A stretch of DNA of 64,000 nt from Chryseolinea sp. H1M3-3 (lineage in GTDB: Bacteria; Bacteroidota; Bacteroidia; Cytophagales; Cyclobacteriaceae). Below, one piece after another: positions 3,845 to 16,315 of the stretch (its first letter is position 1; the number at the start of each line of letters is the position of its first letter). The notes under the pieces were generated by a model. That model was not told where the DNA came from, searched no databases, and was given only the letters and a program-made list of their open reading frames with translations. Position numbers and translations under genes: made by a program. The DNA is taken from the NCBI RefSeq assembly GCF_029360725.1, contig NZ_JARKMY010000010.1, forward strand, positions 700,431 through 764,430. Reading direction: 5' to 3'.

Positions 3845-6800
3845 TTATTGCATGCTTGTCTCAAAAGGTAAACCACCAAAAAATTCATACTCCACCTTCT
3901 TCTGACCCTTTTCGAACAACACTGTTTTTCCATTTTTCGAACCCATCGCGTATTCTTCTTTCAAATGCAACGATCCATCGTCATTGTATTTTTCAACAAC
4001 ACCATGCAACTCATCGAACTTGTAGGTACCCTTCTCAATCAATCGACCGTCGGCTTGATGAATACGATATTCGCCGTCATAGTCACCGAGCACATAATTA
4101 TACTCACTAAACAAGTTGCCGCTTTGGTAATAAAGTCGCTTTGGTCCCGTTAAAACTCCATTTTTGTATGTCTCCTCGTATGCTTTTTTTCCATTATCAT
4201 AATTGATAATGATCTGCGCATTACCCGTAAAAGGCCTCCATGCTTTTGCAGCTTGTGTTGGGGTGATTTCACGAAAGCCAACGAGATGTCCTTCGATGTA
4301 CAATTTCTCGAGCAGCGGTGTGCCTTCTGGCCCGAAATATCTGGTTATTCCATTGCGTTCGTCATTTCTAAATTCCGCGATAGAAGAAATTTGCCCATTC
4401 GGAAAATAATATAACCATGTGCTGTCATGCTTTCCAGACAAGTAAGCTCCTTCATAGTCCAGCTTACCATTTTCATAAAATCCTTTCCACCAACCTTCCT
4501 CCTGTCCATTAATAAAGTTTCCTTGAAGGAGTGTCTTACCTGTAACTGCGTTATATTGATACGGGCCGTCCTTTTGACCATTTAAAAAACTGAAGGCGTA
4601 GAAAATTTTTCCATCAGGGAACCACTTCGTAATTTTTGTGTAATTGCCGCATGTGGTTTCGAATACTGTCTGTTGCTTACCGCTGATATATGTGGTCTGA
4701 AATTTCACGTTCCCGGCTTGCTTAGTCTTTTGTGTGATGGCGGTGCCGTTTGAATTATAATTAATGATATCCTCCAGTTGATCAGCTTTATATTCACTTA
4801 AAGACGATAGTGTCCCCGTTGTGTTGTAATCAAGACACAATCCTGACAATTGGCCATTCAGATAATAATAATCCAATTCAAGTACACCATTAGGATAGTA
4901 CGATAACCATTGCTGCTGGCGATCTCCATCGGTAAACCATCCTGCCTGTTTTAGCTGCCCATGCGGATAGAATTCCTGAAACCCGCCATCAAATTTACCA
5001 TCTTTGTAGTTGAATGCGTATTTCTTTCCGCCAGACTTAAAATACTCTACGGCTGCCCCTTGGGCCAGACCATTTTCATATACGTACTCACTATGTTTGG
5101 TGCCTTCGGGGAAGTAATATCGCCAGGGCCCATGTATTTTACCTTCCTTGTAAGCGCCCTCGCCAGATAGCTGACCCGTTGGGTAAAATTGCTTAGCACT
5201 AAAATTACCGCTTGCGTGCCCAAATTTTCCCAGTTGTTTTCCAAGTGTATCCAGATATACAACGCCAATTAGCAAATCATTCTTGTAGTTGTTGATGTAG
5301 TGAACTTTACCATTGTGATAAATTGTATTGTCTCCGTTGAATTTGCCTGTAGCATCAAAATTCCTCTTTTCAATAAGTACGCCGCGTTCGTTATAGAATG
5401 TCCATTCACCAGCAGACTTTCCTTCGTGATATTTACCGGTGCTTTCAAGCCTGCCATTAGGATGATAATATCTCCACAAACCCGTTATCTGATCATTCGA
5501 GTAATTGCCTTCGGATTTCAATTTTCCATTTGCATGATTTTCAGCGTAGCGTCCCTCAAGAATGTCAGCTTTGTAGGTTAACACATTTCTTATTTTGCCG
5601 CTTTCGAAATAATTCGTAAAGACCCCCACGACTTTATTGGAGTCATAGGTATACGTCGATTTTGTGTTTCCATTGGCGAATAACGTTTTACCGGGTCCAT
5701 GCCTCCGACCCCGATCATAATTCAAAATCTCATTTAGCGTACCACATGCGTCAAACAATTGGACCTTACCATGGATCTTTTCATTCTTCAGAAAAAAATG
5801 TTGATTTAAAACTCCATCATGATAAACATTCACTTCTCCTGTTTCTGAATTTTCTATGCTGCTGACAGTTCCATCATCGTTATAGTATTTCCATACACCA
5901 ATTTTTTTACCGTTGTCTGCGTACGTGCCTTCAGCAGAGCGTTCATAATTTTGTCTGAAGTAAATCCATTTGCCTTTGCGCTTTCCTTGGGCATCTTCAT
6001 TACCAATAGCCTCGATGCGATTATTCGCAAAATACCAGGCTTGTGTGGGCTTGTCGAAGTTTAAAAGTGGAGAGACAATAAGCTCACGCTTTTTCTTAAG
6101 CGACAGGTTGGTAACGTTATAAAATCCCTCAAGCTTCTTTTGATTTTTGTGATGCCATTTTTTAACGAGTTCAATGTTGGCTGATTTGAGAATATGAAAG
6201 ATGAATGGCTCTACCATTTCATTTTCTTTTAAGGCTTGGTAAACGGGCAAATAATAACTGGCCCATGGATCGTCGGTATTAGCAGATGCAGTCCCCAACT
6301 GATCGAAGAACATTTGATATTGTTTTACCAGCGCGACGTCAAGATCAATTTTTGATTTATAATTCTTGTCCATCGCAATTTTCGCCCGGATGATCTGATC
6401 TAATTTTTCAAAAGCATTCGGATTAGTAGTGGGTAACGAGCCTTCCTCTGTAAACTGATTAGACACATATTTTTCCATAAACACCAGTCGTTCATTATCG
6501 TCGTTAGCCAACCCGAGGTACATCCCGAACGATAACATAGCGTGTGTTTTTTTACCTTGCCCTGCAGAAATTCTTCCGAGATTCAAATGACTTCCGGGAT
6601 GGAACGGATTCATCTCCAGCACTCGAAAAAAGCAGGATATTGCTTTATCATAATCTTTATGATTGTAGTGTGTAATGCCTAAGTTATAAACGAGAATAGC
6701 ATCGGTAGGATAAGCTTCAATAGCCTCGGTAAATAACGTGACTGCTTTATCATAATCCCCTTTGCGATCTGTGGCGATCGCTTGCGAACGCAGGAGGTGC

Positions 6801-7087
6801 GCGCGATACGGAGACGTCTTTCTTAATCCCTCCTGACAACTTGCAAGCGCCTTATCGAATTCCTCCGCGGCGATATAAGACAATGCAATTTCTGACAGCA
6901 TATTTATGTATGCAGTGTCCCGTTTGGGAATAGTAAGATATTGCTGAATGGACTCCTTGTATTTACCGGAATCGTACAACTCCTTTCCTCGATTAATGAC
7001 TTGAGCTGCATTAATAAAGGTTGGCTCCTGGGGATAACAAGGTAGAGAAATCGCTATAACGATGATTACCAGGCAAAAACGAATCAT
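3845..7087 (-). CDS. Large exported TPR and MORN/YwqK-repeat protein
   Basis: A 1080-residue protein with a signal peptide (about 1-20). Residues about 28-200 carry tetratricopeptide repeats (for example the YNLGITHYNHKDYDKAISCFF stretch). From about residue 365 to the C-terminus it is built of short repeats of the type G-K-x-x-G-x-W-x-x-Y-Y-x-x-G, the MORN_2 / YwqK-antitoxin-like repeat, in more than twenty copies. Such repeats give an elongated beta structure; TPRs usually mediate protein contacts. Location is probably periplasm or outer surface. It is the first gene of a minus-strand run with the two DUF3857 genes, so a shared envelope role is an inference. Many Bacteroidota carry shorter relatives; the molecular function is not known. 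Confidence 0.85.
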   Translation of the reverse strand: MIRFCLVIIVIAISLPCYPQEPTFINAAQVINRGKELYDSGKYKESIQQYLTIPKRDTAYINMLSEIALSYIAAEEFDKALASCQEGLRKTSPYRAHLLRSQAIATDRKGDYDKAVTLFTEAIEAYPTDAILVYNLGITHYNHKDYDKAISCFFRVLEMNPFHPGSHLNLGRISAGQGKKTHAMLSFGMYLGLANDDNERLVFMEKYVSNQFTEEGSLPTTNPNAFEKLDQIIRAKIAMDKNYKSKIDLDVALVKQYQMFFDQLGTASANTDDPWASYYLPVYQALKENEMVEPFIFHILKSANIELVKKWHHKNQKKLEGFYNVTNLSLKKKRELIVSPLLNFDKPTQAWYFANNRIEAIGNEDAQGKRKGKWIYFRQNYERSAEGTYADNGKKIGVWKYYNDDGTVSSIENSETGEVNVYHDGVLNQHFFLKNEKIHGKVQLFDACGTLNEILNYDRGRRHGPGKTLFANGNTKSTYTYDSNKVVGVFTNYFESGKIRNVLTYKADILEGRYAENHANGKLKSEGNYSNDQITGLWRYYHPNGRLESTGKYHEGKSAGEWTFYNERGVLIEKRNFDATGKFNGDNTIYHNGKVHYINNYKNDLLIGVVYLDTLGKQLGKFGHASGNFSAKQFYPTGQLSGEGAYKEGKIHGPWRYYFPEGTKHSEYVYENGLAQGAAVEYFKSGGKKYAFNYKDGKFDGGFQEFYPHGQLKQAGWFTDGDRQQQWLSYYPNGVLELDYYYLNGQLSGLCLDYNTTGTLSSLSEYKADQLEDIINYNSNGTAITQKTKQAGNVKFQTTYISGKQQTVFETTCGNYTKITKWFPDGKIFYAFSFLNGQKDGPYQYNAVTGKTLLQGNFINGQEEGWWKGFYENGKLDYEGAYLSGKHDSTWLYYFPNGQISSIAEFRNDERNGITRYFGPEGTPLLEKLYIEGHLVGFREITPTQAAKAWRPFTGNAQIIINYDNGKKAYEETYKNGVLTGPKRLYYQSGNLFSEYNYVLGDYDGEYRIHQADGRLIEKGTYKFDELHGVVEKYNDDGSLHLKEEYAMGSKNGKTVLFEKGQKKVEYEFFGGLPFETSMQ

Positions 7088-7240
7088 ACGGAAGTCAAAA
7101 AGTTTGCTTGACTAAAGGAAAAAAAATTAGCGTTATGCTTCCGTTTGAAAATGACAGAATAAACCCTTCTGTAAGAAATGGCGGGTTTTAGTCAAAAAAA
7201 TAAAATCCATTTGTGAGCAATTGTAATAGGGTAAAATCGC

Positions 7241-7271
7241 AAAAAGGCCGCAGAAAAAAGATTCTGCGACC
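7241..7271 (-). terminator. Rho-independent terminator of the Phe/Tyr operon
   Basis: Ten-base arms at 7246-7255 and 7262-7271 (GGCCGCAGAA facing TTCTGCGACC, one mismatch) form a hairpin that on the minus strand is followed by a run of five T. It lies 27 bp past the stop of the DAHP synthase gene. Confidence 0.8.
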
Positions 7272-7297
7272 CGTATGTATACTGTTTCGCAACTATG

Positions 7298-8401
7298 TTA
7301 AACGCGCGCTTCTGTTTTGTTCATCACCTTAGTTTGAATCTGGATAGATTCCTGGTGGATAAGTTTTAACAGGTCGCTTGTGAAGTCAGGGCTTAGTCCC
7401 ATCGCTTTACCAAGTTGAACACGTGTTTGAATAATTTCCTCCCAGCGTGATACTTGGAGAATCGTAACACCATTTTCTTTTTTATACTGGCCAATCTTTT
7501 CGGATATTTTCATTCTTGCAGCCAACTTTGACATGATCTCGTCATCGAGGTGGTCAATCTCATCGCGAAGGATGCTGAGTGTATCTTTGAAAATCTTATT
7601 ATCAGAGGACACGGAACGTACGACCAGGCCATCAATGATTTTAGACAAAACAGCTGGTGTTACTTGTTGCTTGGCATCACTCCATGCGGCATCCGGGTTA
7701 ATATGCGTCTCAATCATCAAGCCCACCATGTCCAGGTCAAGCGCTTTTTGAGAAATGAAAGAAATTAATTCACGGTTACCGGCAATGTGACTTGGATCGC
7801 AAATGATGTCCAACTCAGGAATTCTGGTTTTCAATTCGATCGCCATATCCCACATTGGCGCATTTCTGAACGGACCTTTCTCAAACGCAGAGAAACCGCG
7901 GTGAATTGCTGCCATCTTTGTAATACCTGCTTTGTTCAAACGTTCCAAGGCACCAATCCAAAGTTCAAGGTCAGGATTTATAGGATTCTTCACCATCACC
8001 GGGATGTCCACTCCCTTTAAAGCATCAGCAACTTCCTGAACGGAAAAAGGATTTACGGTTGTCCGTGCTCCTACCCACAAAATGTCGACACCTGCCTTTA
8101 AACATGCGTCAACGTGAGCGGCATTCGCAACCTCAGTAGTGACCGGCAAACCGGTTTCCTTCTTAGCTTGAATGAGCCATTTTAAACCTTCGGCACCTGA
8201 CCCTTCGTACTGGCCCGGCCTGGTACGTGGTTTCCAGATACCCGCGCGTAGTGCGTGTACTTTCCCCGTTGCCGCTAACTGTTTTGCAGTCGCGATGGTT
8301 TGTTCTTCTGTTTCTGCGCTGCAAGGACCACTGATGATGATGGGTTTGCTGGCGGTAGGTAACCATTTTGAAATGGATTCAAGCTGCAATGCCTTTTTCA
8401 T
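7298..8401 (-). CDS. Bifunctional DAHP synthase / chorismate mutase
   Basis: A 367-residue fusion. Residues about 15-265 are a type I (beta subclass, KDO8P-synthase-like) 3-deoxy-D-arabino-heptulosonate-7-phosphate synthase, with GPCSAE, RAGIWKPRTRP, NPIN and CDPSHIAG motifs. Residues about 275-365 are an AroQ-type helical chorismate mutase (LRDEIDHLDDEIMSKLAARM and the KISEKIGQYKK helix). The protein would catalyse the first step of the shikimate pathway and the branch step from chorismate to prephenate, in the cytoplasm. It is the last gene of the Phe/Tyr operon, 12 bp after tyrA. In relatives the fused mutase allows feedback control of the synthase; that is family knowledge, not visible here. 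Confidence 0.93.
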   Translation of the reverse strand: MKKALQLESISKWLPTASKPIIISGPCSAETEEQTIATAKQLAATGKVHALRAGIWKPRTRPGQYEGSGAEGLKWLIQAKKETGLPVTTEVANAAHVDACLKAGVDILWVGARTTVNPFSVQEVADALKGVDIPVMVKNPINPDLELWIGALERLNKAGITKMAAIHRGFSAFEKGPFRNAPMWDMAIELKTRIPELDIICDPSHIAGNRELISFISQKALDLDMVGLMIETHINPDAAWSDAKQQVTPAVLSKIIDGLVVRSVSSDNKIFKDTLSILRDEIDHLDDEIMSKLAARMKISEKIGQYKKENGVTILQVSRWEEIIQTRVQLGKAMGLSPDFTSDLLKLIHQESIQIQTKVMNKTEARV

Positions 8402-8413
8402 ATGTATTCAATT

Positions 8414-9295
8414 TTATTTTTCTTGTACTAATTTGGTTTGTTTATATTCTATGCCGTTTAAAATTTCTCTGATACGGTTAGCATCCTTCATGATGCGTTG
8501 AAGCTCTTTTCCATCTCTCTTCATTAAGAAATACTGAAATTTTTGCAGGTGCATGATGTACTCCAGCAATGCCTGACTTAAATATTCGGAATTTTGTTCA
8601 AAGATCGGTGCCCACATATCGGGTGAACTCTTGGCAAGACGAACTGTGGATGCGAAACCACTTCCAGCAAGCGCGAAAATATTCTTTTCGTCACGTTCAA
8701 TATCCAACACCGTTTGACCTAACAAAAAGGAACTGACGTGCGACAAATGTGAGACATAGGCCACATGCTTGTCGTGCTCTTCGGGCTCCATGAAGATGGT
8801 GCTCATTCCTAACACAGTAAAAATTCGTTCTGCCAATTCAAGTGCTTCTTTGGAAGATTTCTCTTTCTCGCAGATGATATTTGTTTTGCCCCGGAACAGT
8901 CCTTCAAATGCCGCTTCCGGTCCGGAATTTTCTGTACCGGCAATTGGATGTGATGCTACAAACTGGCCCCTATTTGGATGGTTAGCAATCGCACGGCAGA
9001 TCATTCGCTTGGTCGAGCCAGTATCAATAACTACTGCTTTCTTTTTGATCGAATCCAAAACTGATGGGAGCAATTGAGCCAATGCATTTACCGGTATAGC
9101 AAGGATAATCAGATCAGAAGTTGTAATGGCTGTTCCTTCGCTTTCAATGGAATCCACCAGCCCCAACGTTACTGCCTTGGCTGCATTTGCACCATTCAGA
9201 TCCACGCCAACCAGTTCGGTGGCGATGCCTGCCTTTCGAAGATCGAGTGCAATTGATCCTCCGATTAATCCTAGTCCGATAACGGTTGTCTTCAT
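8414..9295 (-). CDS. tyrA: Prephenate dehydrogenase
   Basis: A 293-residue NAD(P)-dependent dehydrogenase that makes 4-hydroxyphenylpyruvate from prephenate for tyrosine synthesis. The Rossmann motif VIGLGLIGGSIA is at residues 5-16; the conserved SHPIAGTENSG and SHLSHVSSF motifs of the TyrA family follow, and the C-terminal half is helical. No ACT domain is attached. The gene sits third in the operon, 21 bp after the aminotransferase and 12 bp before the DAHP synthase/chorismate mutase, which supplies its substrate. Confidence 0.92.
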   Translation of the reverse strand: MKTTVIGLGLIGGSIALDLRKAGIATELVGVDLNGANAAKAVTLGLVDSIESEGTAITTSDLIILAIPVNALAQLLPSVLDSIKKKAVVIDTGSTKRMICRAIANHPNRGQFVASHPIAGTENSGPEAAFEGLFRGKTNIICEKEKSSKEALELAERIFTVLGMSTIFMEPEEHDKHVAYVSHLSHVSSFLLGQTVLDIERDEKNIFALAGSGFASTVRLAKSSPDMWAPIFEQNSEYLSQALLEYIMHLQKFQYFLMKRDGKELQRIMKDANRIREILNGIEYKQTKLVQEK

Positions 9296-9316
9296 GCTAA
9301 GCGTTGGTGTTAATAC

Positions 9317-10510
9317 CTACCTCTGATTTTTTTCAGCTTTATCAGACGTTGACTTCAAAAATTTATCAATGCGGATAAGCGCTTCCCGTAACATCTGCTC
9401 AGTGCAGCACAGCGAAACACGAATGTATCGTTTACCTGCATCGCCGAAAATAAACCCAGGTGTAATAAACACCTTGGTGCCGTAAAGAATTTCATCGATC
9501 CACTTTTCAACATCGACAATGTGCTCAGGTGCCTTCGCCCAGACGAATAAACCAGATTGTTTGGAAGAAAAACTACAACCCAAACGCGTCAACAGTTCGC
9601 ACGCAATTTTCTTACGTGCTCCATAAACTTTGTTAAGTGCAACAAACCATTCATTTCCGCTCTTCAGCGCTTCAACAGCGGCATGTTGTAAACCCAAAAA
9701 CATGCCTGAGTCCATGTTGCTTTTGACTTTTAAAACAGCGTCAATATATTCTTTCTTACCAGCAACCCAACCGATCCGCCAACCTGCCATGTTGTGCGAC
9801 TTGCTTAGCGAGTTCAATTCCAATGCTACTTCGTCTGCCCCTTCAATTGCTAAAAGGCTCAACGGCTCGTCATTCAGAATCATGCTGTAAGGATTGTCAT
9901 TCACGATCAAAAATTGATTTTCACGAGCGAGGCCAATCAATGCTTTTAGTTCTTCACGGGTAGCAGTTCGTCCTGTTGGCATGTGTGGAAAATTAATCCA
10001 CATCAGTTTTACTTTTGATAAATCACTTTTCCTGAGCGCCTCGATGTCGATGCCCCAGTTTGAATCCTCGCGCAATGCATATGGCCTCAACGTTGCACCA
10101 ACAAGGTTTGCAACCGAGGAATATGTTGGATATCCTGGATTTGGAATCAACACTTCATCTCCTTCATTGACAAATGCCATCGAGATGTGCATGATTCCCT
10201 CCTTTGAACCCATGAGCGGAAGAATCATACTTTCCGGATCGAGGGTGACGTTGTAAATTCGTTGGTACAAGTCGGCGATACCTTTTCGCAATTGAGGAAT
10301 ACCTTTGTAATTCTGATACCCATGGTTTGAAGGATTTTTTGCAGAATTGATCAATGCGTCGATCGTAGACGGATCCGGTGCCTGATCAGGGCTACCAATT
10401 CCTAGATTAATCACACGCCATTCCGGAGAATCGAGACCCCTTACTTCAGCGAGCTTTCTGCTGAAATAGTACTCTTCAACATTTGCGATCCTTTTTGCAG
10501 TTTGTATCAT
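9317..10510 (-). CDS. Class I/II aminotransferase of the Phe/Tyr operon
   Basis: A 397-residue fold-type I PLP-dependent aminotransferase. The PLP lysine lies in LNSLSKSHNMAGWRIGWVAG, and NDNPYS and the C-terminal RVSLC arginine motif are present. Sequence flavour is that of the aspartate/LL-diaminopimelate aminotransferase group. Its place between pheA and tyrA suggests that it transaminates phenylpyruvate and 4-hydroxyphenylpyruvate, or prephenate itself; which of these cannot be decided from sequence. It starts 29 bp after pheA and is followed by tyrA at 21 bp, so it is part of the attenuated operon. Confidence 0.9.
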   Translation of the reverse strand: MIQTAKRIANVEEYYFSRKLAEVRGLDSPEWRVINLGIGSPDQAPDPSTIDALINSAKNPSNHGYQNYKGIPQLRKGIADLYQRIYNVTLDPESMILPLMGSKEGIMHISMAFVNEGDEVLIPNPGYPTYSSVANLVGATLRPYALREDSNWGIDIEALRKSDLSKVKLMWINFPHMPTGRTATREELKALIGLARENQFLIVNDNPYSMILNDEPLSLLAIEGADEVALELNSLSKSHNMAGWRIGWVAGKKEYIDAVLKVKSNMDSGMFLGLQHAAVEALKSGNEWFVALNKVYGARKKIACELLTRLGCSFSSKQSGLFVWAKAPEHIVDVEKWIDEILYGTKVFITPGFIFGDAGKRYIRVSLCCTEQMLREALIRIDKFLKSTSDKAEKNQR

Positions 10511-10539
10511 ATACTGTACTGTATTCGACTATTGTTTTG

Positions 10540-11382
10540 CTATTTGTATTCAATCTTGGCCTTCTTATACTCCCCTAAAACATTCAGATTTTTAACCTGG
10601 CGAAGAACCTGATGCATGGCATCATCGTAATTTTTTCTTTTGCGCCATTCTACATCAATATGGATGGAGTATTCACTCGGCCTTCCAATAATAGGTATGG
10701 ATTGAATTTTAGTTAAGTTGATGCTGTTATCTTTTAGCGTCATTAAGGCGTCAGCCAGGCTTCCAACTTCATTTGCTACTTCAAAAGAAATCGATGCTTT
10801 GTTTGCATCAGCCTTACCGTTACTCCGTTTGGTCAAAATTAAAAATCTTGTAAAGTTCTTTTTATGAGTTTCAATCCGCTTTTCCAGTATCTGAAGTCCA
10901 TATTTTTTCGCCGCATGTTCGTTCGCAATGGCAGCAGTATCCCTTAACTTAAGTTCTGACACACGTTTCGCAGAAAGTGCTGTATCATCGCTTTCCCGGA
11001 TCTCCACATTTTTTAACCCGTGCAAAAATTCAGCACACTGGCGGATGGCCATGGGGTGAGACTCAATCGTTTTGATATCGCTCAAGTTCACACCTGGCAG
11101 GGCTAGTAAATTCATGTGAATAGGCAAATACAGTTCACCTATAATGCTGAAATGATACTCCTGCAAAAGAAAGTAGTTAGGCAAGATGCTTCCGGCAATG
11201 GAGTTTTCAATAGCCATGACTGCATAATCCGCTTTACCACTCTTAAGACTTTCACACAGCTGATGAAAAGTAAGGCATTCAATCGTTTCAATGGGTTCAT
11301 TGAAATAGGTAAGCGCCGCCACTTCGTGAAAGCTGGTCGCTATACCTTGAATTGCAATCCTTAATTTTTTCTTCTTCGCCAT
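10540..11382 (-). CDS. pheA: Prephenate dehydratase
   Basis: A 280-residue monofunctional prephenate dehydratase (prephenate to phenylpyruvate). The catalytic domain covers about residues 5-185, with the substrate-binding AIENSIAGSI motif and the TRF motif in NFTRFLIL. An ACT domain follows (about 200-278); its usual GALV and ESRP allosteric motifs read GSLADAL and QSIPIIGRPSEY, so the phenylalanine site is only partly conserved. It is the first structural gene of the Phe/Tyr operon, and its ATG at 11382 lies 55 bp after the leader terminator. Control by transcription attenuation is strongly suggested by the leader described separately. Confidence 0.93.
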   Translation of the reverse strand: MAKKKKLRIAIQGIATSFHEVAALTYFNEPIETIECLTFHQLCESLKSGKADYAVMAIENSIAGSILPNYFLLQEYHFSIIGELYLPIHMNLLALPGVNLSDIKTIESHPMAIRQCAEFLHGLKNVEIRESDDTALSAKRVSELKLRDTAAIANEHAAKKYGLQILEKRIETHKKNFTRFLILTKRSNGKADANKASISFEVANEVGSLADALMTLKDNSINLTKIQSIPIIGRPSEYSIHIDVEWRKRKNYDDAMHQVLRQVKNLNVLGEYKKAKIEYK

Positions 11383-11436
11383 ACTGTTTTTCCTTTTCAG
11401 GGCCGAGGTCTTTCAAATTAAAAAGTCTATAAAAGC

Positions 11437-11465
11437 AAAAAGTCCCGTTTTACCGGGACCTTTTT
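11437..11465 (-). terminator. Attenuator terminator in front of pheA
   Basis: On the minus strand, AAAAAGGTCCCG (11465-11454) pairs with CGGGACTTTTT (11447-11437) around a GTAAAA loop, then TTTTT: an intrinsic terminator placed upstream of pheA, not after a gene. Its 5' arm can alternatively pair with an identical CGGGACTTT copy at 11513-11505, so terminator and antiterminator exclude each other. Confidence 0.85.
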
Positions 11466-11502
11466 GAGTTTTAGTTATCGTTAATCAACAACACAGCTAC
11501 TC

Positions 11503-11565
11503 TTAAAGTCCCGCCGGGGCACTAAAAAAGTAATAAAAGTAAAAAAATGTGTTGTGAGCTTTCAT
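11503..11565 (-). CDS. Phe/Tyr-rich attenuator leader peptide of the pheA operon
   Basis: A 20-codon ORF (ATG at 11565, TAA at 11505-11503) whose residues 7-14 are FFYFYYFF: five Phe and three Tyr codons in a row. The codon run is at 11547-11524. The stop codon overlaps the antiterminator arm (11513-11505). A ribosome reaching the stop would cover that arm and let the terminator form; a ribosome stalled for lack of Phe- or Tyr-tRNA would leave it free to form the antiterminator. This is the logic of classical pheL/trpL leaders. The ORF was found by eye and no expression evidence is available. Confidence 0.85.
   Translation of the reverse strand: MKAHNTFFYFYYFFSAPAGL
11505..11513 (-). promoter_or_regulatory. 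Antiterminator arm of the pheA leader
   Basis: On the minus strand this reads CGGGACTTT, identical to the 3' arm of the terminator (11447-11439). It can pair with AAAGGTCCCG at 11463-11454 through nine contiguous pairs including one G-U. A second pairing, ACAACACA (11555-11548) with TGTGTTGT (11495-11488), could form a hairpin around the control codons. Confidence 0.75.
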
Positions 11566-11583
11566 TTCTTGTTCTTGATAGCT

Positions 11584-11615
11584 CAAAGATAAAATTTTTT
11601 TTTCGGCAGTTGCAA
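11584..11615 (-). promoter_or_regulatory. Promoter of the pheA operon
   Basis: On the minus strand, TTGC (11615-11612) precedes TATCTTTG (11591-11584) by 24 bases start to start, matching the Bacteroidota promoter pattern TTTG-N19-21-TAnnTTTG. Transcription would begin near 11578, about a dozen bases before the leader peptide ATG. Confidence 0.65.
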
Positions 11616-11715
11616 GCACCAGGTAATCTTTACTGTAAAATTTCTTTTAAACTAATGATTGTTAGTTCAGCCGTTGACCAATACATCTTAACTTTACGTC
11701 TACCTCACAGATAAA

Positions 11716-12171
11716 ATGCCTTATAATATGAAAATCAGCTTTCAACCAATCCTTTTATGCGCTCTTGTCCTGGCTTGGGGATGTGGACAAAAACAACAAG
11801 ATCATGAAGCGCATAGCCACAGCGACGAGAAAGGCGCCAACCAGCAATTATATGATGAGGTAATGAGCGTCCATGATGAGGTTATGCCGAAGATGGACGA
11901 TCTCTATAAACTTAAGGAACATCTGAAAAAACAAGTAGCTGATTCACCCCAGATGACGGAGGAAAAAAAGAAAAAGATTGAATCCGCCATTCTTCAGCTG
12001 GATTCTGCCAGTGAAGGCATGATGGTATGGATGCGAAATTTTAACCCTTTGCCGGATAGTCTTGGTGAAGAAAAAGCGAGGACGTATTTAGAGGAGCAAA
12101 AAGTAAAAGTCTCCAAAGTTAAAGAAGATATGCTGAAGGCGATTGAAGAAGGGGAAGCTTTGAAAGAATAG
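11716..12171 (+). CDS. Small helical lipoprotein, unknown function
   Basis: A 151-residue protein with an N-terminal hydrophobic segment ending in LAWGC at about residues 19-23, a plausible though not ideal lipoprotein signal. ATG at 11728 (second Met) would give a cleaner signal peptide. The mature part starts with a His/Gln-rich linker (HEAHSHSDEK) and continues as charged helix likely to form coiled coil (about 35-151). Similar small lipoproteins are common in Bacteroidota, without a known role. It is read away from the pheA promoter region and stands alone. Confidence 0.7.
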   Translation: MPYNMKISFQPILLCALVLAWGCGQKQQDHEAHSHSDEKGANQQLYDEVMSVHDEVMPKMDDLYKLKEHLKKQVADSPQMTEEKKKKIESAILQLDSASEGMMVWMRNFNPLPDSLGEEKARTYLEEQKVKVSKVKEDMLKAIEEGEALKE

Positions 12172-12299
12172 CAGTCATGATCGCAACCTGCTTTATTTCA
12201 GGATCGGTAGCACATGGTTATCAAAAACAAATAACTAGATGGCTATAGGACAGTTTAGTACATCGAAATAATATTTGACTTGCCGTTTAATTAAAACTT

Positions 12300-15122
12300 A
12301 TGCTTAAACCGAAATGGCGCGGCAAACTGCTTCTTTTTCTTTGGATGGCATTCTTTTGTTTCAATGCAACGCTCACGTTGGCTTCACATATGATTGCTGT
12401 CGAGATCCGGGCCAAGCCGGTTGACTGCCAGGCGCGTAGATATGAAATTACGCTCATCGCGTACGTTAACACAGCTTCGTCGGTTGCTTTTGGCGGCGGT
12501 GAACAGGATACATTATCTTTTGGAGACGGAACATCGTTACTGGTTCCTGAGCAACCTGCTACAATTATTGACCCGATTCTTAATATTGGCAGAGTTCAGT
12601 ATACAGTCATTCATACTTACGCAGCTTCCGGTTATTACATATTGTCGTATAGTGAATATGCCAGAAACGAGGGCATCATTAATATGGATGAATCTGAATT
12701 TACAACATTCTATACTGAAACGGGGATTACCATCTCTTCTCAACACTGTGATTCATCACCGTACTTAACTGTTCCACCTGTCGATCGTGCCTGCAGTGGC
12801 ATTGCATATTATCATAATCCTGGTGCCACAGATCCTGACGATGATAGCATTTCTTTTTCATTTATTCTTCCTAAAAGCAGTACCGATAAGGATGTAAAAA
12901 ATTATCGGTACCCCAACCATACGCAATTTTATACTTCTGTCGGTATCAATTATAACCAGGCTAACGAAAATAATAATGGGCCTCCAACCTTCGTCATCGA
13001 TGCGGCCGACGGCACCGTTACGTGGGACGCGCCAGGATCCCCCGGTGAATATGCTTTTGCTATTAAAATTACTGCCTGGAAATTTAATGAAACCGATAGT
13101 GCATGGGTTGAGTCAGGCTTTAGCATTCGCGACATGCAAGTTCTTGCGGAAGGTTGCTCAAATAATAAACCAGAACTAATTGTACCTGACGATATTTGTG
13201 TGACAGCAGGTACCGCTGTACAGTTCACGATACCGGCGTCTGATCCCGATGGCGATCTTGTTTCGATTGAAGCTTTCTCGGATGTTTTTTCTTTAGCGAA
13301 TAGTCCGGGAAAAATAACACCTTCGGGTTCTCCCCTACAATCTACCATAGCACCTAACGATACCGCTTCAGTCCAATTTACATGGAATACAACATGCTTG
13401 CACATCAAAGGCCAGCCGTATAAAATCGTATTCAAAGTAACGGATAACCCACCCGGCGGGCCAAGGCTGGTCCAGTTTAAAACCGTTTCCATAAAAGTAA
13501 TTGCACCGGTTCCTGAGATCGAAAGTATAAATGTCAACCCTGTTTCGAAAAGCGTAACGCTGGCGTGGAGTAACTATCCTTGTAAAAACATACAAAGCTT
13601 TCAGGTTTGGAGAAGGGTAGCCGAATATGTTTATGATCAGCCGGAATGTAATAATGGAATGCCTTACTTTTTACGATATACATTGTTAGCGACGCTTCCC
13701 GGCAATGTGATTACTTATACCGATTCTGATCTTTCAATCGGCGCGCAGTATTGTTACCGGATCGTCGCCCTTGTTGGTGAAAATAAAATTCCAAGCAGGA
13801 TATCCCTAGATACTTGTCTTATACCAAAACCCGCAGAAGCACCAGTGATTACCAATGTTTCAATTATTGAAACCCACGAAATGAATGGAAGTATTCAAGT
13901 GCGTTGGACGTCACCGTTTGACATTGAAAAAACTCAATATCCTCCACCATACGCTTATAAAGTTTATCGCTCCAACGGGTGGGAGAATAATACCTTTACT
14001 GAACTTACCCAGGATCCCATCAGTGATACCGTCTTTATTGATACCCCTGTCAATTCTCAAACCTTCCCTTACGAATACAGAATTGAGTTGTTTGTTCCTA
14101 CATTAAGTACGACACCGATCGATACTTCATCCATCGCTTCTTCAGTTTTTCTCACTGCCGAATCGCAACGGGGCCAAATCAAACTTACATGGGACGCCCA
14201 AACACCGTGGTCGAATTACGTCCAAACTTTCCCTTTCCATCTCATCTATCGCAGCGATCAAGGACTTAACGGACCGTTTATTTTGATTGATAGCGTTGAT
14301 GTAATTAAATCCGGGTTTGAATACATCGATGAAGGGAAATTTCAAAACCAGCGCCTGGTGGAGGACAAGTTTTACTATTACAAAATTCTAAGCAGGGGCT
14401 CGTATGGTAACCCATCGATCAGTCAACCTTTGGAGAATTATTCGCAAGTCGTTGCTAGCGCTATCCTGGATTCAAAGCCACCGTGCACGCCAACCGTTGT
14501 AATAGACAAAATGGATTGCAGCAACCTGCCATGTGATACGGACACCTACTACAATTACATTTCTTGGAGTTATTCCGATAATAGCTGTTTGGAAGATGGC
14601 CTGACCTACCAGGTCTTTGAGGCAGACGCTGAAGGTGATGAATTCATTTTATTGACCACGGTATCGGACAATTCCTTTCGACATTCCAACCTCACTTCCC
14701 TGGCCAAATGTTACAAGGTAGTAGCCGTTGATGCTGCAGGAAATATGAGCTCTCAAAGTGAGGCTGTCTGTAACGATAATTGTCCTTACTTTGAATTACC
14801 CAATGTCTTTACACCAGGTTCTGAAGACGGCCGCAACGATCAGTTCATTGGCTTCGGGCCAGAGAATGGAGCCTCACGATGTGCAAGGTTTGTAAAACAA
14901 ATCGATTTGAAAATTTATAACCGTTGGGGCACCGAGATATATTCTACAAATAAAATTGTTCCGAAGGGAGGTACTTTCCTTTGGGATGGAACATCAAATA
15001 CAGGTAGACAGTTGGATTCTGGCGTTTACTATTATTCAGCCAACGTCACCTTCGATGTGAGGAATCCTGCGCAGCAAACTAAAATTATCAAAGGTTGGGT
15101 GCACCTCATTCGAAATAAATAA
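12300..15122 (+). CDS. Secreted multidomain protein with gliding-motility-type C-terminal (CHU_C) domain
   Basis: A 940-residue protein with a signal peptide (about 1-28, ending TLTLASH). The middle contains PKD-like (DATDPDDDSISF, ASDPDGDLV) and fibronectin type III-like segments (about 400-800) with several cysteine pairs. The last 95 or so residues (FELPNVFTPGSEDGRNDQF onward, with LKIYNRWGTEIY, FLWDGT, LDSGVYYY) match the gliding motility-associated C-terminal domain, the type B sorting signal of type IX secretion. The protein is therefore expected to be exported across the outer membrane and may be an adhesin; the ligand is unknown. It is followed by a 110 bp gap before gcvT and appears monocistronic. 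Confidence 0.88.
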   Translation: MLKPKWRGKLLLFLWMAFFCFNATLTLASHMIAVEIRAKPVDCQARRYEITLIAYVNTASSVAFGGGEQDTLSFGDGTSLLVPEQPATIIDPILNIGRVQYTVIHTYAASGYYILSYSEYARNEGIINMDESEFTTFYTETGITISSQHCDSSPYLTVPPVDRACSGIAYYHNPGATDPDDDSISFSFILPKSSTDKDVKNYRYPNHTQFYTSVGINYNQANENNNGPPTFVIDAADGTVTWDAPGSPGEYAFAIKITAWKFNETDSAWVESGFSIRDMQVLAEGCSNNKPELIVPDDICVTAGTAVQFTIPASDPDGDLVSIEAFSDVFSLANSPGKITPSGSPLQSTIAPNDTASVQFTWNTTCLHIKGQPYKIVFKVTDNPPGGPRLVQFKTVSIKVIAPVPEIESINVNPVSKSVTLAWSNYPCKNIQSFQVWRRVAEYVYDQPECNNGMPYFLRYTLLATLPGNVITYTDSDLSIGAQYCYRIVALVGENKIPSRISLDTCLIPKPAEAPVITNVSIIETHEMNGSIQVRWTSPFDIEKTQYPPPYAYKVYRSNGWENNTFTELTQDPISDTVFIDTPVNSQTFPYEYRIELFVPTLSTTPIDTSSIASSVFLTAESQRGQIKLTWDAQTPWSNYVQTFPFHLIYRSDQGLNGPFILIDSVDVIKSGFEYIDEGKFQNQRLVEDKFYYYKILSRGSYGNPSISQPLENYSQVVASAILDSKPPCTPTVVIDKMDCSNLPCDTDTYYNYISWSYSDNSCLEDGLTYQVFEADAEGDEFILLTTVSDNSFRHSNLTSLAKCYKVVAVDAAGNMSSQSEAVCNDNCPYFELPNVFTPGSEDGRNDQFIGFGPENGASRCARFVKQIDLKIYNRWGTEIYSTNKIVPKGGTFLWDGTSNTGRQLDSGVYYYSANVTFDVRNPAQQTKIIKGWVHLIRNK

Positions 15123-15205
15123 AAATGTTTGGATATCACGGAATATGAAAACCATTTCCGCCTCGCTCAACGCAGATTATTTCCCTCATTTTTTCGGAAA
15201 TAGTT

Positions 15206-15213
15206 TACCTTTG
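15206..15213 (+). promoter_or_regulatory. Probable -7 promoter element of gcvT
   Basis: TACCTTTG, a full match to the Bacteroidota -7 consensus TAnnTTTG, 19 bp before the gcvT start. No clear TTTG -33 box is seen. The same ten bases, TACCTTTGTG, stand before gcvP. Confidence 0.5.
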
Positions 15214-15232
15214 TGCTCTTCAAAAGAACGCC

Positions 15233-16315
15233 ATGGATTTAAAGCTTGTCCCCCTTAACGATTTACATACAAAACTCGGTGCTAAAATGGTACCCTTCGC
15301 AGGTTATAACATGCCTGTGCGTTATTCTTCAGATATTGAAGAGCACATGACCGTGCGTAAAGGTGTTGGTGTTTTTGATGTATCTCACATGGGAGAATTC
15401 CTCGTTCAGGGGCCGCAAGCATTGGATCTTATTCAACGCGTTACTTCCAACGATGCATCCAAGCTTATCGATGGGCAGGCGCAATATTCATGTCTACCCA
15501 ACGAGACCGGCGGCATTGTCGATGATCTTATTGTATATAAAGTCAAAGACAATGATTACATGCTTGTAGTTAATGCTTCCAATATTGAAAAGGACTGGAA
15601 CTGGATTACAAAATTCAACACAAAGGGAGCGACGATGAAAAACATTTCGGACGACATTTGCCTCTTTGCTGTTCAGGGTCCGAAGGCAGCGGCTACTTTG
15701 CAAAAATTAACCAAGATTGACCTGAATACTATTAAATATTATCATTTCAGCAAAGGAGAATTTGCCGGCGTTCAAGATGTTATTATTTCGAACACCGGTT
15801 ATACGGGTGCAGGTGGATTTGAAATTTACATCGATAAGAAACATGCCGAGAAAACCTGGAATGCAATTTTCGAAGCCGGAAAAGAATTTGATATTAAACC
15901 TATTGGATTAGGTGCGCGCGATACATTACGACTTGAGATGGGCTTTTGTTTGTATGGCAATGACATTGATGATACTACCTCTCCACTGGAAGGAGGTTTG
16001 GGATGGATTACAAAATTTTCAAAACAGTTTACGAATTCTGATGCCCTTAAAAAGCAAAAAGAAACAGGCGTAAAACGTAAACTGGTAGGATTTAAGATGA
16101 TTGATAAAGGTATTCCGCGCCATGACTACATTATCAAAACGGCCGATGGTTCATCCATAGGAAAAGTAACGTCGGGTACAATGTCGCCCGTCTTAGGAGT
16201 CGGCGTGGGGCTCGGATACGTAACAACAGAACATGCCAACCCTGACCATGAAATTTTTATCGACGTTCGCGGGCGGCTTCTGAAAGCTTCCATTCATAAA
16301 TTACCTTTTATCTAA
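15233..16315 (+). CDS. gcvT: Glycine cleavage system T protein (aminomethyltransferase)
   Basis: A 360-residue tetrahydrofolate-dependent aminomethyltransferase of the glycine cleavage complex, which moves the methylene group from lipoylated H protein to THF and frees ammonia. Family motifs are clear: [10 protein letters not shown] (about 43-52), [26 protein letters not shown], and the C-terminal barrel with [10 protein letters not shown]. Length is normal. The P protein gene is about 40 kb away in this window. gcvT is followed after one base by a TPR gene and then comB, forming a tightly packed operon. Confidence 0.95.

Follow-up and report, generated by a model that had tools for sequence, protein, structure and literature searches.

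The pheA gene of Chryseolinea sp. H1M3-3 is preceded, on the minus strand, by an element that is very probably a classical ribosome-mediated transcription attenuator of the operon pheA-aminotransferase-tyrA-DAHP synthase (DAHPS)/chorismate mutase (CM), answering charged tRNA-Phe and tRNA-Tyr. The element lies within the window, that is, the whole 64,000-nucleotide stretch of DNA that was analysed. The marks of a classical attenuator found there are an open reading frame (ORF) with consecutive product codons and predicted to be translated, an intrinsic terminator, and a mutually exclusive antiterminator that shares arm 3 with the terminator. What is observed directly is the set of sequence elements, the way they are conserved and spaced, and the covariation of the terminator. 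A preliminary description of this DNA had proposed ribosome-mediated attenuation in response to Phe and Tyr, and this proposal draws its support, as a deduction, from the conservation of the leader, of the arms and of their spacing, and from terminator covariation.

The features are listed below, with evidence beyond the sequence itself in brackets.

11584 to 11615, minus strand: putative promoter of the Bacteroidota type, with TTGC at 11615-11612, a 20-nt spacer and a -7-type box TATCTTTG at 11591-11584
11503 to 11565, minus strand: leader ORF MKAHNTFFYFYYFFSAPAGL, 20 codons and TAA (69 of 70 loci have an aromatic leader, controls seldom do)
11548 to 11555, minus strand: arm 1 ACAACACA, 5′ side of the outer helix (p = 0.19 against shuffles in the window)
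11524 to 11547, minus strand: eight consecutive control codons, FFYFYYFF (Phe Phe Tyr Phe Tyr Tyr Phe Phe)
11505 to 11513, minus strand: arm 2 CGGGACTTT, 5′ arm of the antiterminator (spacing, pairing on the alignment)
11488 to 11495, minus strand: arm 1′ TGTGTTGT, 3′ side of the outer helix (folding)
11454 to 11464, minus strand: arm 3 AAAAGGTCCCG, common to antiterminator and terminator (covariation)
11437 to 11447, minus strand: arm 4 CGGGACTTTTT, 3′ arm of the terminator (paired with arm 3 in 99.8% of alignment cells)
10540 to 11382, minus strand: pheA, prephenate dehydratase, 280 aa (best NCBIfam match 196 bits, under the cut-off of 219)
9317 to 10510, minus strand: class I aminotransferase (the 25 NCBIfam matches listed are all under their cut-offs)
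8414 to 9295, minus strand: tyrA, prephenate dehydrogenase (NF006307 above cut-off)
7298 to 8401, minus strand: DAHP synthase fused to chorismate mutase (both domains matched, under cut-offs)

The promoter, the leader, the overlap of its stop codon with arm 2 and the competing arms had all been placed exactly to the base in the preliminary description. The eight-base pairing said to surround the control codons is likewise present (11555-11548 with 11495-11488), and ACAACACA:TGTGTTGT encloses arm 2 as well as the control codons. Arm 2 and the leader TAA (11505-11503) have one base in common, and arm 2 starts 13 nt past the first base of the last aromatic codon. A T-rich stretch extends 3′ of arm 4 to about 11431, and 54 nt separate arm 4 from pheA. 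The leader RNA (11578-11432) has a fold that beats 200 of 200 dinucleotide shuffles (z = -3.6). The -7-type box of the window matches the TAnnTTTG box quoted in PMC9723704; a strict TAnnTTTG within 60 nt of the leader start is found at only 16 of 70 loci.

That ribosomes stall, in what order the RNA folds, which amino acids are sensed and in which direction control runs are all inferred from this arrangement. With an ample supply of aromatic amino acids, the translating ribosome would read the eight aromatic codons through to the stop and cover arm 2, upon which arm 3 would pair with arm 4 and transcription would end ahead of pheA. Under a shortage of Phe or Tyr, translation would halt within the aromatic run, leaving arm 2 just past the assumed reach of the ribosome and able to pair with arm 3; no terminator would form and the operon would be transcribed. 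Should the leader go untranslated, the outer helix between arm 1 and arm 1′ may sequester arm 2 and so favour termination.

The leader was found to be conserved among relatives when set against antisense and shuffled controls, and for this reason it is regarded as a real element and not a product of chance. Among named pheA loci (the best 80 of 150 confirmed), the nearest of which by PheA belong to Chryseolinea, Ohtaekwangia and other Cytophagales, 68 carry an aromatic leader upstream of pheA (L032-L099, the frame being disrupted in L082). PheA identity to the window is at least 58% in these 68 loci and at most 55% in the other 12 (L100-L111, 53-55%, from Prolixibacteraceae and others), where no leader was detected at six of nine aromatic codons. 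With the window and L003 included, a short ORF with at least seven of nine aromatic codons occurs in 69 of 70 upstream regions (L082 is the exception), against 0/70 antisense regions and 1/1400 dinucleotide shuffles; at six of nine the same controls yield 2/70 and 37/1400, respectively. When the leader ORF and arms were checked across relatives, as had been suggested at the outset, the aromatic codons, the terminator and the competing antiterminator arm all proved to be conserved. Gaps across the control run are in frame in 52 of 53 aligned rows, that is, in all but L053. In L053, L061 and L082 the control run is one base shorter than in neighbouring loci and the frame is shifted, which may be a real change or an assembly error; the shifted leader still ends at arm 2 in L053 and L061, and not in L082.

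Beyond these loci, a phylum-wide pick of 60 upstream regions was taken from 258 matching genomes for family spread, mostly from the better-scoring matches; 198 genomes were left out of the pick, G000, G021 and G048 among them being covered by the own-order set described below. At least six of nine aromatic codons are reached in 46 of the 60 regions and at least seven in 39, with antisense controls at 0/60 and shuffles at 34/1200 and 2/1200 for the two thresholds. A terminator and a candidate arm 2 accompany the leader in 43 of 50 scanned regions of this pick (L116-L165), in a scan run without a shuffled control; some candidates are weak (for example, L157 and L158) and others are AT-rich and misplaced (L124, L144 and L151). 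Within the order of the window itself, 48 of 59 genomes matched and gave 30 loci (L002-L031), ten of which have a leader with at least six of nine aromatic codons no more than 450 nt upstream (L002-L008, L013, L019 and L023). The 20 loci lacking such a leader have PheA proteins 30-51% identical to that of the window, and homologues in this range are mostly leaderless in this order, with a leader in three of the 23 loci L009-L031. The leader is lacking at most of the more distant PheA loci seen, and so it tracks certain PheA and operon lineages and not every Bacteroidota genome.

Three loci contain what appear to be two aromatic leaders in series, located at about -325 to -92 from the pheA match in L164, at -348 to -83 in L131 and at -306 to -83 in L019. 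L131 yielded two terminators in the scan, L164 yielded one and L019 none, although terminator-like sequences are visible by eye. The paired leaders suggest tandem attenuators.

The pairing of the arms was examined on an alignment (A1) of 53 distinct rows, comprising the window and 52 of 65 loci after removal of near-duplicates; L003, L082, L097 and L098 were left out. The terminator is paired in 99.8% of cells, with 16 cells and five pairs changed on both sides, and none of 500 shuffles has as many two-sided changes. The antiterminator is paired in 83.8% of cells, versus at most 60.2% when it is slid by 1-3 columns. Its two-sided changes amount to seven cells, a number reached by 15 of 500 shuffles, and two pairs, which is no better than shuffled (393 of 500), and its covariation score is matched by 11 of 500. 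Covariation is thus strong for the terminator and weak to modest for the antiterminator. Arms 2, 3 and 4 can be seen to vary together in single loci, where the arms carry CGGGGCTT (L046 and L071), AGGGACTT (L084), GGGGACTT (L067) or GGGGGATT (L088). Among 42 distinct arm triplets none of 5000 permutations reaches the observed pairing for either helix, in a test that is flattered by the choice of arm 2 as the best complement of arm 3. Counted from where the last aromatic codon begins, arm 2 lies 10-14 nt away in 68 of 71 loci and 13 nt away in 34, a count flattered by the same choice. The control runs hold six to nine aromatic codons (70 loci). A spacing of 10-14 nt roughly equals the assumed extent of a ribosome past its A site.

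This spacing bears on a different reading of the region, in which an ordinary intrinsic terminator ends a small upstream transcript, the aromatic ORF is a by-product of T-rich DNA, and pheA is served by a promoter between terminator and gene. The aromatic run alone is indeed not rare for the composition of this genome: seven consecutive TWY codons occur at three places (four overlapping matches) in 6.9 Mb, and a reversed control pattern gives 12 matches. The other two places were considered as leaders and rejected on their context, only the one at pheA being leader-like. The 54 nt between arm 4 and pheA in the window would also give room for a promoter. Against this stand the conservation of the aromatic ORF over its antisense and shuffled controls, and the presence of a competing arm 2 at nearly fixed spacing. 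Moreover, the terminator ends no more than 30 nt before pheA in 54 of 70 loci (with the pheA start codon set by rule), so that little room is left for a separate promoter behind it. Such an unlinked terminator is therefore considered most improbable.

The attenuator reading was further explored with a masking model in which the ribosome is assumed to cover -18 to +12 relative to its A site and covered bases are barred from pairing. Its outcome is therefore partly built in, since pairing of covered bases is forbidden and the footprint is assumed. The masking and outer-helix tests covered 69 of 71 loci, with L013 and the frame-disrupted L082 left out. On transcripts cut after arm 3, the antiterminator is favoured in 66 of the 69 loci with a ribosome modelled at the first aromatic codon, in all 69 with one at the middle codon and in 68 with one at the last. 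A ribosome modelled at the stop codon removes the antiterminator in all 22 loci that stop at arm 2 and in all 14 that stop 4-7 nt beyond it, the window included; in the window, the antiterminator probability under the assumed footprint is 0 with the ribosome at the stop and about 0.94 when it is stalled. The full RNA behaves differently at equilibrium: the terminator is favoured in 68 of 69 loci when no ribosome is present, and a stalled ribosome lowers this number only to 67. As the full RNA favours the terminator at equilibrium, the switch must be kinetic, with an outcome that depends on timing.

The preliminary description had also located the stop codon inside arm 2. This is correct for the window, by an overlap of a single base, and it is not universal: 33 of 69 loci have the stop 12-21 nt beyond arm 2, and in 28 of them arm 2 stays unmasked when a ribosome is modelled at the stop. 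In displaced-stop loci (for example, L047, L049 and L058) the leader runs 12-21 nt past arm 2 and has endings like GLERESVC or GFERVAVCC. According to the model, the ribosome in this displaced-stop class must either mask arm 2 while moving or depart and let the outer helix re-form. The class thus offers a natural test of ribosome position, rather than the stop codon alone, as what sets the outcome.

The outer eight-base pairing has a mixed standing. In per-locus tests, 48 of 69 loci have a helix that surpasses its shuffles at p <= 0.05 and 34 of 69 at p <= 0.01, whereas in the window itself it is not significant against shuffles (p = 0.19). On the alignment, in the register of the window, 57.3% of cells are paired and one slid control is higher (60.2% at +3). 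The sequence of the helix differs by clade, for instance AACCGATT:AATCGGTT in the RFYF group, and the low alignment score is attributed to clades using different registers, which is why the helix was tested per locus instead. Without a ribosome, transcripts cut after arm 3 favour the antiterminator in 55 of 69 loci, including the window (0.94), and from this it follows that at equilibrium the outer helix does not block the antiterminator. The helix may best be taken as a conserved anti-antiterminator whose role would lie in the sequence of folding steps and not in the equilibrium state.

A second alternative accepts control by the leader peptide; in place of starvation stalling and a switch between 2:3 and 3:4 pairing, it invokes a different route, be it access of Rho, the translation of pheA or a dedicated arrest peptide. 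The displaced-stop class, which misfits simple masking at the stop codon, speaks for such a route, as do L135, L154 and L155, in which an aromatic leader precedes pheA and an intrinsic terminator was not found by the scan. An arrest peptide is disfavoured because the order of the F, Y and W residues varies among loci, and intrinsic terminators with competing arms are conserved in the Cytophagales set. Control by one of these other routes is accordingly given very little weight, and starvation stalling with alternative pairing is retained as the probable mechanism. Other regulatory types, namely a T-box, a riboswitch and a protein-binding attenuator, were rejected, as there was no Rfam match and the leader ORF and arms explain the sequence.

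The control codons of 70 loci comprise TTT (255), TAC (120), TAT (112), TTC (47), TGG (23) and a few others. Trp codons are present in 23 of the 70 leader runs, and the leader of the window is confined to Phe and Tyr. If the aromatic pool is sensed, this would suit an operon with DAHP synthase among its genes. With regard to translation, GGAG, GAGG and AGGA are absent from positions -14 to -4 in all 70 leaders, and 55 of 70 have A or G at -3; the start context of the window leader is A-rich, without a Shine-Dalgarno-like motif. Members of the Bacteroidota are described as lacking Shine-Dalgarno sequences (PMC6847099), and leaders without this motif agree with that description.

The genes behind the leader had been described as a pheA-tyrA operon. 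Both genes are present; that description was incomplete, the real order being pheA-aminotransferase-tyrA-DAHPS/CM. Prephenate dehydrogenase is the only product of the operon that passes a curated NCBIfam cut-off, and the aminotransferase (9317..10510) is probably the aromatic aminotransferase of the operon, its substrate being suggested by context. The full order is found in 60 of the 68 leader-bearing loci, and some of the others are on short contigs. The 12 leaderless loci consist of three with pheA-aminotransferase-tyrA and nine with pheA alone. Downstream of the operon in the window is a minus-strand ORF of 1080 aa (3845-7087) with TPR-like and repeated N-G-x motifs, for which all NCBIfam matches are under their cut-offs; a relative of it lies behind the operon in seven of the 68 leader-bearing loci. 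In Solitalea (L097 and L098) a Trp-containing leader, AYWFFGYFYFF, stands ahead of pheA, and in L097 DAHPS/CM is directly behind pheA, an order differing from that of the window.

Rfam (release 15) has no match at the gathering threshold in positions 5000-16000 of the window. At the same threshold the element is unmatched in 12 related loci, where the only match is a Flavo-1 RNA in L136 (495-572, 78.6 bits), on the strand opposite pheA and roughly 390-470 nt upstream of the pheA match. Relaxing the search to E<=10 on 11400-11640 gives 15 matches, all far under their gathering scores. The lowest E-value (0.14) belongs to RF01859, Phe_leader, whose model positions 1-125 of 125 align to 11562-11433 with 21.8 bits against a gathering score of 55; by Rfam's rule the window element is not a member of Phe_leader.

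The element is not new in kind, being a switch of the textbook type found conserved in many relatives. In the ilvGMEDA and thrABC attenuators of enterobacteria a single leader senses several end products; the present element is similar in this respect and differs in being aromatic and not branched-chain or Thr/Ile. The pheL leader of E. coli is Phe-only. The element shares with the proteobacterial pheA attenuator (pheL, RF01859) a leader peptide rich in the product amino acid, a choice between antiterminator and terminator, and a position before pheA. It is unlike that attenuator in that Tyr codons are also present (and Trp codons in 23/70 loci), there is no Shine-Dalgarno-like motif, and the operon adds tyrA and DAHP synthase.

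Closer to the window in taxonomy, the transcriptome study of Flavobacterium psychrophilum reports strong indications of attenuation by leader peptides ahead of amino-acid operons, and lists pheA and hisG among structured 5′ elements kept in other Flavobacteriaceae genera without Rfam hits (PMC9723704). The suggestion that such a leader may be undescribed in the Bacteroidota was therefore too generous. The Flavobacteriaceae pheA element belongs to the same gene and phylum, a likeness drawn from the published description and not from sequence; unlike it, the window element has its nearest named relatives in Chryseolinea and other Cytophagales. From a different phylum, uORFC-13-1 upstream of Acholeplasma aroF is proposed as a Phe-sensing leader ORF ahead of an apparent intrinsic terminator (PMC8632094). 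It resembles the present element in combining a leader ORF and a terminator on a shikimate-pathway gene, and differs in phylum, in gene, and in having at least one Phe codon and no run of eight aromatics. The possible serial leaders of L019, L131 and L164 recall the tandem attenuators of Salmonella mgtCBR, in which two attenuator ORFs stand in series (PMC3641672), whereas the window has a single attenuator. Bacteroides small ORFs reminiscent of leader peptides are mentioned in PMC7366714. The open-access literature, to the extent its texts were accessible, yielded no description of a Cytophagales leader or of a Phe/Tyr/Trp leader. A 2010 survey by Lopatovskaya et al. may cover Bacteroidetes. 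Control of amino-acid synthesis in the Bacteroidota seems to be little described in the accessible open-access literature.

Other amino-acid leaders are encountered in the genome of the window. A five-His leader, MNKVSNIGLHHHHHVNCMCGKTMF, precedes hisG (L179, G000:C12) and a three-Trp leader, MKRLSNIAWWWHRSVLDL, precedes trpE (L201, G000:C19), and similar His and Trp leaders are found in five of the five same-genus genomes searched. A terminator lies behind the hisG leader and likewise behind the Trp leader of a relative (L195); in the genome of the window this check covered the hisG leader, the pattern having missed L201. Ile/Leu/Val-rich leaders upstream of ilvD were not detected in the genome of the window (L205 and L221) at the threshold used, and candidates for them are present in two relatives (L211 and L212), with 20 of 25 ilvD-family loci examined. 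As His and Trp leaders are present in addition to the aromatic one, attenuation looks like a general strategy in this lineage.

In a broader reading, which is plausible and still somewhat short of probable, the element would be an ancient aromatic-pool sensor of the Bacteroidota. Here one leader would read Phe, Tyr and, in many lineages, Trp, and would control both the DAHP synthase entry and the Phe and Tyr branches. Initiation would proceed without a Shine-Dalgarno sequence, the arrangement would be tandem in some lineages, and the displaced stop of 33/69 loci would need a moving or released ribosome, not one halted at the stop, for arm 2 to be kept away from arm 3. The finding is of a reproducible element that Rfam release 15 does not recognise. 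The presence of Phe/Tyr, His and Trp leaders in one genome implies a coupling between transcription and translation that is tight enough for attenuation to work there.
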